DNA of 64,000 bases from Deltaproteobacteria bacterium GWC2_55_46 (GTDB taxonomy: Bacteria > Desulfobacterota > GWC2-55-46), in the NCBI GenBank assembly GCA_001595385.3, contig LVEI03000001.1:1765501-1829500 (forward strand), read 5' to 3'. How positions within the stretch are numbered: position 1 is the first letter of the stretch; each line of letters starts with the position of its first letter. The notes beneath the pieces were generated by a model. It was not told the DNA's origin. It saw only the letters and a program-made list of their open reading frames with translations, and ran no database searches. Positions 31,504-35,702 of this stretch are shown piece after piece. The position numbers and the translations under genes were made by a program.

Positions 31504-31917
31504 CTATTTCGGAGGCGCCGGTGGCGGCGGGGCTGCCTTTACGGTCATGAGCATATTGGTGGCGAAGAAGACGATGGAGATCGCCTCGACGACCGAGAAG
31601 ATGGCCAGAGTCGCCATCTCGCCGGAATCGTTGCGTATCACCCAGCCTGCCGCCATGCCGATGAGGCCGATATTCGCGAGCCAAAGCTGCGCCTTTGCGA
31701 GCGGGTCGCTGTAGAGAGGGCGTCCGCTGAACCTGGGCAGTATATGGTATGCCACGCCGTAGATCATCATGGACATCCATCCGAGGAGGTTGAAGTGGGT
31801 GTGTATCGGCATCCACGGGTATACCGGGCCGGCTATACTCATGTGAAGCCCAAGGAGTATAGCGGCAAGGAAGTAGATGATCGCAAAGCGTATGAACCAG
31901 ACTGTTATACTGCTCAT
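31504..31917 (-). CDS. Short heme-copper-oxidase-like membrane protein
   Basis: The 137-residue protein has about four membrane spans. MPIHTHFNLLGWMSMMIYG resembles the paired-histidine heme helix of cbb3/NOR-type subunit I, and HILPRF follows. It is far too short to be an oxidase and ends in a proline-rich tail. It is the first gene of a three-gene minus-strand operon with DUF1858 and DUF542 proteins, with AGGAGG seven bases before the ATG. It may be a heme-binding partner or sensor in nitric-oxide or oxygen stress; that is inference. Confidence 0.75.
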   Translation of the reverse strand: MSSITVWFIRFAIIYFLAAILLGLHMSIAGPVYPWMPIHTHFNLLGWMSMMIYGVAYHILPRFSGRPLYSDPLAKAQLWLANIGLIGMAAGWVIRNDSGEMATLAIFSVVEAISIVFFATNMLMTVKAAPPPPAPPK

Positions 31918-32934: not shown

Positions 32935-34344
32935 ATGAAAAAAACATATGATCTCGTGACAGAGGCTCAAGGCTCTCCGGCCTCCGGTTTGGCCTTTGGC
33001 TGGCTTGCCCTGGCGGTATTTTCCCTCGTCTTTGCCGGGGTATTCGCCCTCCTTGTGGCACTGGCGAGGACGCCTGTACTTGAGGATATGCTCCCGCTCG
33101 GGCGGGACTATATCTATGTGGCCCTCGTCGGGCACGTAGTCCTTGCGGTTGTCATATGGTTCCTCGCCTTCAAGGGCTTTCTCTGGGTCTTCTCGTCGGC
33201 ATGCGTGGCTGGCAGGTCTGTCTTTTCAATGGCCCTCGGTTGGGCTTCGCTCGCTCTTTCTGCCATCGGTATGTCCCTGGTCGTAGTCTCAGCCGTCCTG
33301 GGGCTTGGGGCGGCCGAGCTTGCCAACTATGTGCCCGTCCTCCTGACCCCTGTCTTCTATGCGGGGCTCATATGCTTCGCTTCGGGTATATTACTCAATA
33401 TCGTAAATACGTTCCTCTCAGTCCTCTTCGGTGGCAAGGGGAAGCTCCCGGTACTCACCTTCGGCATGCTCATCGCCGGGGCAGCGGTAGCCGTGGCCTT
33501 CTTTGACTTCGCCCTCTCAGGCTGGTTCCAGTACTCGACAGGCAAGATGTACCTTGACTTTGAAAGACTATTCTGGGGCGGAGGGCATATACTCCAGTTC
33601 GCCAACACCATCGCGATGGCTACCGTCTGGCTCTACCTCGTAAAACGGGTGCTCGGCAGGAACGCCATTGGTGATACCGCCGCAAAGGCCATATATGTCA
33701 TCTTCCTTATCTTCATCCTGCCTTCTCCTGTGCTTTTCTTCTTGTACGATACCTCCTCGCAGGCCTATAAGGACAGCTTCACATGGCTCATGCAGTGGGG
33801 CATCGGCCCCTCTGTAGGCATATTCATGATAGCTGTCTACTGGACTTTGTTGGCCACAATGCGCAGGCCGTGGAAGGACCCGGCCTTCTCCTCTTTGGTC
33901 CTCTCGATCTCTGTCTTTTCACTCGGCGGGCTCATAGGCATCGGCATAGACGGAGTCAACACCATCATACCGGCCCATTACCACTGCGTCATAGGCGCGG
34001 TCACGATAGCGTTCATGGGCCTTTTCTACGAGATCCTGCCGGACTTCAACAGGGCCTTGTGGAGCAGAAGGCTCGCCGCGGTCCAGCCGTACCTCTATAC
34101 CCTCGGCATAGTCCTCTTTGCGGTCGGGCTCTTCCTCGCGGGCTCTCATGGCGTTGCGAGAAAGACCTACGGGAGCGAGCAGAACCTCAATACGCTCGGA
34201 AAGCTCATAGGCATGTCGATAATGGGCTTGGGCGGGCTGGTGGCCATCGCCGGCGGGATCGCCTTTGTAGTAAACGCCATTATGTCGCTCTTCGGTAAAA
34301 AGGCCGCTCAGGAGGCCCCTGTCGGGCTTGCCGGGCGCGCGTAA
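32935..34344 (+). CDS. Heme-copper oxidase subunit I-like protein lacking the CuB His pair
   Basis: The 469-residue protein has about twelve membrane spans. Retained histidines are H in VGHVVLAVVIW (low-spin heme), H in WGGGHILQFAN (one CuB ligand position of cbb3/NOR enzymes) and the heme pair in PAHYHCVIGAVTIAF. At the place of the usual His-His pair I read ILPSPVLFF, so CuB would be incomplete. It may be an alternative NO or O2 reductase or a non-catalytic relative. No subunit II is nearby, but heme O synthase and a cytochrome c follow. An AAAGGA site precedes the ATG. Confidence 0.75.
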   Translation: MKKTYDLVTEAQGSPASGLAFGWLALAVFSLVFAGVFALLVALARTPVLEDMLPLGRDYIYVALVGHVVLAVVIWFLAFKGFLWVFSSACVAGRSVFSMALGWASLALSAIGMSLVVVSAVLGLGAAELANYVPVLLTPVFYAGLICFASGILLNIVNTFLSVLFGGKGKLPVLTFGMLIAGAAVAVAFFDFALSGWFQYSTGKMYLDFERLFWGGGHILQFANTIAMATVWLYLVKRVLGRNAIGDTAAKAIYVIFLIFILPSPVLFFLYDTSSQAYKDSFTWLMQWGIGPSVGIFMIAVYWTLLATMRRPWKDPAFSSLVLSISVFSLGGLIGIGIDGVNTIIPAHYHCVIGAVTIAFMGLFYEILPDFNRALWSRRLAAVQPYLYTLGIVLFAVGLFLAGSHGVARKTYGSEQNLNTLGKLIGMSIMGLGGLVAIAGGIAFVVNAIMSLFGKKAAQEAPVGLAGRA

Positions 34345-35372: not shown

Positions 35373-35702
35373 ATGCGTAAAATATTAGGAATTGGCATAC
35401 TCGCTCTCGGTCTCGCCGCTTTCACAGTACCTGCGATGGCCGCTGACGGCGCAGCTGTCTACAAGGCGAAGTGCGCTCCGTGCCACGGCGCCGACGGACA
35501 GGGCACCGCGATGGCCCCCGGCTTCAAGGGCAGCGAGTGGGTAAGGAGCACCGCTGACGCCGAGATCGCCACCGTCATCACAGCCGGCCGCGAGGGCGCC
35601 GCGAAGAAGTACAAGCAGTTCGCCATGGGCATGCCCAAGCAGAAGCTCTCCGACGATGATGTAACGGCCGTTGTGGCCCACATCAAGGGGCAGGCGAAGT
35701 AA
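35373..35702 (+). CDS. Periplasmic monoheme cytochrome c
   Basis: The 109-residue class I cytochrome c has a clear signal peptide (LGIGILALGLAAFTVPAMA) and heme site CAPCH (C34-H38). The Met ligand is probably in the GMPKQKLS segment. AGGAGG sits six bases before the ATG. It has its own promoter and terminator, so it can be made at high level apart from the oxidase-like gene, whose electron donor it may be. Confidence 0.92.
   Translation: MRKILGIGILALGLAAFTVPAMAADGAAVYKAKCAPCHGADGQGTAMAPGFKGSEWVRSTADAEIATVITAGREGAAKKYKQFAMGMPKQKLSDDDVTAVVAHIKGQAK

Follow-up and report, generated by a model that had tools for sequence, protein, structure and literature searches.

A conserved heme-copper subunit I homologue without the CuB histidine pair, putatively a two-heme pseudo-oxidase derived from an eNOR-like nitric oxide reductase subunit

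Here we describe a subunit I homologue of the heme-copper (HCO) superfamily that retains its heme ligand positions and has lost two of the three CuB ligands. The gene lies in the window, by which we mean the whole stretch of 64,000 nucleotides from Deltaproteobacteria bacterium GWC2_55_46 that was analysed (Table 1). Because the CuB pair is lost while the heme sites are kept and the gene is preserved beside a heme o synthase gene, the protein is probably a respiratory-enzyme fold adapted to another, putative use. The more specific reading that we prefer, and to which we give about an even chance, is that it represents a conserved two-heme pseudo-oxidase, descended from an eNOR-like NO reductase subunit of the B family, which would bind a gas or relay electrons in a copper-free form.

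Table 1. The CuB-less gene, its ligand-position codons and neighbouring genes (window coordinates)
Feature	Coordinates	Strand	Evidence
CuB-less HCO subunit I	32935..34344	+	469 aa; PF00115 1.3e-23
H67 codon, TM2, low-spin heme ligand position	33133..33135	+	H in 46/47; 47th truncated there
H218 codon, TM6 CuB-ligand position; then Q221	33586..33588	+	H218, Q221 in 47/47
L267-F268 codons, opposite the missing CuB His-His	33733..33738	+	HH 0/47; sister clade 40/40
H348 codon, high-spin heme proximal ligand position	33976..33978	+	47/47
H350 codon, low-spin heme second ligand position	33982..33984	+	47/47
CtaB, heme o synthase, 288 aa	34398..35264	+	TIGR01473 271.6 bits, cut-off 210.3
Small cytochrome c, signal-like N terminus; candidate electron partner	35373..35702	+	PF00034 3.2e-13
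Acyl-CoA dehydratase activase-domain protein, 1418 aa	36010-40266	+	TIGR00241 7.1e-87
COX1-like mini-protein, 137 aa, HTH motif	31504-31917	-	PF00115 34.5 bits, slightly below cut-off; partial CcoN match

First, the 469-aa protein is predicted to adopt the full-length fold of an HCO subunit I. COX1 (PF00115) is its sole Pfam match, NCBIfam returned no match, and in a phmmer search of the PDB the ba3 oxidase of Thermus was the only heme-copper match (4fa7, 5.2e-05; 4faa, 7.1e-05). An AlphaFold2 model built from 12 aligned sequences reached a pLDDT of 82.9 and a pTM of 0.86; Foldseek matched this model best to ba3 oxidase (4g71_A, E 2.0e-11), and VIA-align gave Z values of 30-33 across 412-439 residues to many COX I chains among the 50 matches listed. 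Together, these results argue for a complete subunit I fold, and the Pfam match and the fold place the protein within the HCO superfamily.

Second, the metal site is altered in a defined way. The protein contains only five histidines (67, 218, 348, 350 and 405). By alignment, H67 and H350 occupy the ligand positions of the low-spin heme, H348 the proximal position of the high-spin heme and H218 the first CuB ligand position in TM6, which bears out the initial annotation in its statement that the heme-binding histidines and one CuB-position histidine are present. That annotation had also read the CuB pair as replaced by PSPV; the loss holds, but the location does not, since the pair falls on L267-F268, just after P263-S-P-V266, when D272, the conserved Asp, and the histidine of TM6 serve as anchors of the alignment. 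In an alternative alignment by phmmer, the pair lies opposite a two-residue gap. Another histidine pair at the CuB site was looked for, and its presence is excluded by the count of five histidines. We also considered a second CuB-like site elsewhere in the protein and ruled it out, as no histidine is to spare in TM7-8. A "histidine sextet" of three heme and three metal-site histidines has been described as the HCO signature (PMC3413370), and four of these six are kept here.

The residues that accompany the copper site in related enzymes have changed too. The H+4 position, Tyr or Gln elsewhere, is F222 in the window protein and Phe in 41 of 47 CuB-less homologues, none of which carries Gln, compared with Gln in all 40 eNOR-like paralogues. 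Similarly, Tyr at H+15 is found in 0/47 homologues versus 40/40 members of the sister clade, and position 340 is Gly in all 47 homologues and His in 40/40 of the sister clade. R409 is kept throughout (47/47), and position 410 is Lys in 47/47 homologues and Arg in the sister clade. The reference residues of ba3 oxidase used for comparison are Y237, Y244, Y248 and H376, with roles such as that of K-channel Tyr. The loss of Tyr H+15 and of His 340 argues against the usual proton-coupled reduction of O2 or NO. With two of three CuB ligands, the H+4 Tyr/Gln and the H+15 Tyr missing, the protein falls outside the tested definitions of the A/B-family O2 reductases (CuB triad and Tyr at H+4) and of eNOR, which is characterised by Gln in place of the cross-linked Tyr of subunit I (PMC8756737).

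Third, the missing pair is shared by a family of homologues. We based residue counts on the 47 distinct members that remained from 83 ORF matches and on an eNOR-like set of 40, to which three 572-aa B-type rows (L030-L032) do not belong; rows shorter than 300 aa (one eNOR-like, three of a third family) were left out. The CuB HH pair is found in 0/47 homologues versus 40/40 of the sister clade, and one homologue, L085, carries a His at the second of the two positions only. By comparison, H218, Q221, H348 and H350 are invariant, and H67 is kept in all 46 homologues whose sequence reaches that position. NG86 dN/dS values of 0.07-0.22 for the 15 closest homologue pairs indicate that the gene is under purifying selection. 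The absence of HH in 47 homologues together with the low dN/dS means that the missing pair is due neither to chance nor to sequencing error. Although the loss of two active-site residues might by itself suggest a decaying pseudogene or a sequence error, we regard this explanation as having virtually no chance of being right, given an identical change in 47 distinct homologues, the low dN/dS and the invariant heme ligands.

The family extends beyond the phylum of the window genome, in which a whole-genome search gave a match in 17 of 297 genomes, a sample of a larger group. A scan of assembly contigs, which alone covered phyla other than this one and Bdellovibrionota, found ten homologues at 60-76% identity and one from Bdellovibrionaceae at 31%; nine of these records are named Deltaproteobacteria and one is an uncultured bacterium. 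In Bdellovibrionota, the phylum of the last homologue (L016), a search at 1e-30 gave matches in 12 of 368 genomes, and the other seven proteins, whose alignment was inspected by eye, all lack HH (7/7).

Our phylogenetic analyses place the CuB-less clade, with two phyla represented, as the sister of copper-keeping eNOR-like subunit I. A tree of 56 rows (LG+C20+F+G4) unites the 35 CuB-less rows in one clade (100/100), which joins the copper-keeping paralogues with a support of 100/99. Both groups are also clades at 99 in a quick 52-row tree without four long-branched rows and some columns, although the column numbers came from the 56-row alignment and were applied to the 52-row one, so that the columns removed may miss the exact ligand regions. 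The window genome encodes one such paralogue (C1:680930-682369), which is 34% identical to the CuB-less protein and retains the TM6 His, the HH pair and the heme ligands, with Gln at H+4. Beside it lies the gene for a COX2-domain subunit II of the cupredoxin/CuA type (L062 10668-11198; PF00116 8e-05), and the operon also encodes SCO1 and a cytochrome b-FeS protein. No cupredoxin or CuA subunit II, which would be expected of an eNOR, is present among the ORFs adjoining the CuB-less gene in the window. The suggestion that the protein could be an alternative nitric-oxide reductase is thus sound as regards ancestry, but the protein itself departs from the eNOR sequence features; the other half of that suggestion, a heme protein with another task, agrees better with the loss of two of three CuB ligands and of the H+4 and H+15 residues.

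Two further observations concern the relatives of this paralogue. The cytochrome b-FeS protein in the eNOR-like operon (L062 6152-7729, minus strand) is a fusion that combines a cytochrome b domain with 4Fe-4S and FlpD domains, and occurs in 34/36 class genomes with the eNOR-like gene versus 3/27 without, in a presence set that omits G306 (31%). In addition, a third, very divergent COX1-like subunit (L055 4666-6111; L058 9422-10861) retains the TM6 His, HH and HFH, has its own subunit-II-like neighbour and stands in tandem with eNOR-like genes in some class genomes.

The surroundings of the gene tie it to heme biosynthesis and, in some genomes, to the eNOR-like paralogue. In the window, ctaB starts 53 bp 3' of the CuB-less gene, as the initial annotation had stated for heme O synthase, and a relative of the small cytochrome c that follows was found in 7 of 22 neighbourhoods compared. 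Upstream on the opposite strand are genes for an Mrp-like ATPase, the 137-aa COX1-like protein, a ferredoxin and a NifU-like protein, with the Mrp, ferredoxin and NifU assignments made by eye. The 137-aa protein often adjoins the CuB-less gene, and small COX1-like matches similar to it also occur in class genomes that have no CuB-less gene (e.g. G313); the gene for the 1418-aa acyl-CoA dehydratase activase-like protein lies downstream in many related genomes.

Across the class, the CuB-less gene directly adjoins the gene for eNOR-like subunit I in nine genomes (G016, G300, G339, G340, G341, G342, G343, G344 and G345; adjacency was counted by hand from gene coordinates), and several of these neighbour pairs continue with ctaB and SCO1. 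For example, two loci (L127, L130) show the order CuA-type subunit II, eNOR-like subunit I, CuB-less protein, CtaB and SCO1, with the cytochrome b-FeS gene on the opposite strand, and parts of this order recur in L122, L124, L128, L129, L131 and L134. The two genes also share a cluster in four loci of Bdellovibrionota (L016, L150, L152, L154), two of which (L016, L150) unite the genes for eNOR-like subunit I, the cytochrome b-FeS protein, the CuB-less protein and CtaA. This arrangement, together with the fact that only one of 36 genomes with an eNOR-like gene is without a CuB-less gene, could mean that the protein is the non-catalytic partner in a catalytic/non-catalytic heterodimer of an eNOR-like complex. 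We find this rather doubtful, because the eNOR-like gene is missing from 11 of 46 CuB-less genomes and because the two genes are about 1.1 Mb apart in the window genome itself. The eleven genomes imply that the CuB-less gene can outlive its paralogue and that its product is no obligate subunit of an eNOR-like complex.

The CuB-less gene is further associated with CtaB. Among 63 class genomes, CtaB is present in 46/46 genomes with the CuB-less gene (two as contig-end pieces) versus 1/17 without, compared with 35/36 genomes with the eNOR-like paralogue and 12/27 without, so CtaB follows the CuB-less gene better than it follows the copper-keeping paralogue. The eNOR-like gene itself is found in 35/46 CuB-less genomes versus 1/17 others. 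These comparisons treat relatives as independent and thereby overstate the evidence. Presence sets were compiled by hand: the CuB-less set comprises rows of at least 44% identity, split rows of family f4 and G332 (31-33%, alignment inspected), the eNOR-like set rows of at least 55% identity, including the broken G328 and the fragmentary G314, and the CtaB set matches above cut-off together with pieces at contig ends in G314 and G345. The proposal that the protein binds a farnesylated heme is therefore well supported by association, with ctaB adjoining the CuB-less gene in 38/46 class genomes and not adjacent in the remaining 8/46. In two genomes (G322, G332), the CuB-less gene adjoins an A-type oxidase, and CtaB there could serve that oxidase, which speaks against our main reading.

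CtaA (PF02628) was absent from the window genome (G000) and from 57/63 class genomes and was found in 6/63, which suggests heme O as the farnesylated heme of the window organism. Heme A was considered for this organism and appears unlikely, as no PF02628 match was found in G000.

In three genomes (G316, G314, G173) the CuB-less protein is the sole PF00115 match; G314 additionally encodes an eNOR-like fragment of 62 aa and the gene of G173 starts at a contig end, so we used only G316 (= G349), which is 96% complete and has ctaB adjoining the CuB-less gene, itself close enough to a contig end that a second HCO could be unassembled. This genome bears on the idea that the protein is an assembly or heme-delivery factor, which would take heme o from CtaB and pass it to catalytic HCOs, as the adjoining ctaB in 38/46 genomes and the nearby SCO1 genes of several operons might suggest. 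We judge such a role improbable: G316, in which a search found no second PF00115 protein, has kept the gene together with ctaB, and the invariance of both heme sites, the low-spin site included, goes beyond a carrier's needs. Cytochrome bd was considered as the terminal oxidase of those genomes that have no other HCO; across the 63 class genomes, CydA-like matches are mostly partial, and only G323 has a full-length one. In the window genome, the CydA-like protein at G000:C1:2176717-2177415 matches only the N-terminal half of PF01654, although its frame spans about 600 aa, and most class genomes encode similar proteins.

A link to NO is suggested by genes of the NirS family. Besides a NirS-type protein, two more proteins matching PF02239 are encoded in the window genome, which makes NO a plausible ligand, and PF02239 is found in 27/46 CuB-less genomes versus 3/17 others, a modest statistical link. 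Since this link is far weaker than that to CtaB, NO as the ligand is a guess. We note that the likely nir cluster of the window genome (L162 6288-15649) lies about 25 kb from the eNOR-like operon and contains these three proteins and a radical-SAM-like protein, the last assigned by eye. In G316, a protein with cytochrome c and cd1 domains (L161 6648-8369, minus strand; PF02239 506.7 bits) outscores the NirS-type protein of the window genome on PF02239. A heme-only NO (or O2) reductase, in which heme o alone, with H218 and Q221 as distal residues, would convert NO to N2O using electrons from cytochrome c, draws on the sister relationship to the eNOR-like clade, on the invariant distal His and Gln and on this cytochrome c-cd1 protein in a genome whose only PF00115 protein is the CuB-less one. 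However, the K-channel Tyr and the second metal site are missing, most CuB-less genomes without an eNOR-like gene have no PF02239 match, and G316 may not make NO, as no further NirF/NirN-type protein was found there by PF02239 and the cd1 protein has no evident nir-like neighbours. We therefore consider a heme-only reductase unlikely.

Our preferred reading, a two-heme pseudo-oxidase, treats the CuB-less protein as a paralogue of the eNOR-like catalytic subunit of a B-family NO reductase. The HCO fold has been retained, as have both histidines of the low-spin heme site and the proximal histidine for the high-spin heme. By contrast, two of the three CuB histidines and with them the copper site are gone, and so are the Tyr/Gln of the active site, His 340 and the K-channel Tyr (H+15). 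Its cargo would most likely be heme b and heme o, the latter the product of CtaB, in keeping with the absence of CtaA from the window genome. As a two-heme membrane cytochrome, it may accept electrons at the low-spin heme from a periplasmic cytochrome c, the putative donor, and pass them to a copper-free heme o with H218 and Q221 in the distal pocket, which could bind or buffer a diatomic gas, with NO the likeliest ligand and O2 a possible one, or hand the electron on.

Compared with known systems, the CuB-less protein shares with eNOR and other B-family NO reductases the fold, the heme ligands and, in some lineages, an operon, and with the eNOR-like paralogue the TM6 His, Gln at H+3, Asn at H+6 and Trp at H+14, but it has no CuB pair, carries Phe for Gln at H+4 and lacks Tyr at H+15. 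The ba3-type oxygen reductase of Thermus thermophilus is its top Foldseek match and only heme-copper phmmer match, yet the CuB-less protein is without the CuB pair and without Tyr at H+4, H+11 and H+15. Altered metal-site ligands and a proposed unusual reaction are also described for the putative, qNOR-related NO dismutase (NOD), in which one metal-site His is replaced by Asn (PMC3413370). By that description, the CuB-less protein differs from NOD in losing two of three metal-site His (to L and F), with both pair positions changed rather than the single His-to-Asn replacement of a qNOR-type protein; the "histidine sextet" is broken at two places in the CuB-less clade, more than in NO dismutases. 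A cbb3-type oxidase of Nitrospina likewise has unusual residues around CuB, but there it is a Trp close to the site that has been replaced, and a loss of the three CuB His is not described (PMC3578206). The titles and abstracts searched describe no CuB-less HCO clade; the main survey of NOR diversity lay outside this search, so absence from print is not established.

Finally, the bimetallic centre defines the mechanism of heme-copper enzymes, and the CuB-less clade is a natural experiment that could reveal what the HCO fold does without copper. It is possible, though we think it improbable, that the clade represents a copper-free branch of HCOs with heme o as the sole reactive centre and a gas chemistry of its own, be it that of a heme-only NO reductase or of an NO-binding respiratory protein, and that it persists even in a genome in which the search found no further heme-copper enzyme. 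Moreover, Pfam alone would label the protein cytochrome c oxidase subunit I, and such mislabelling could inflate the aerobic respiration predicted from environmental genomes.
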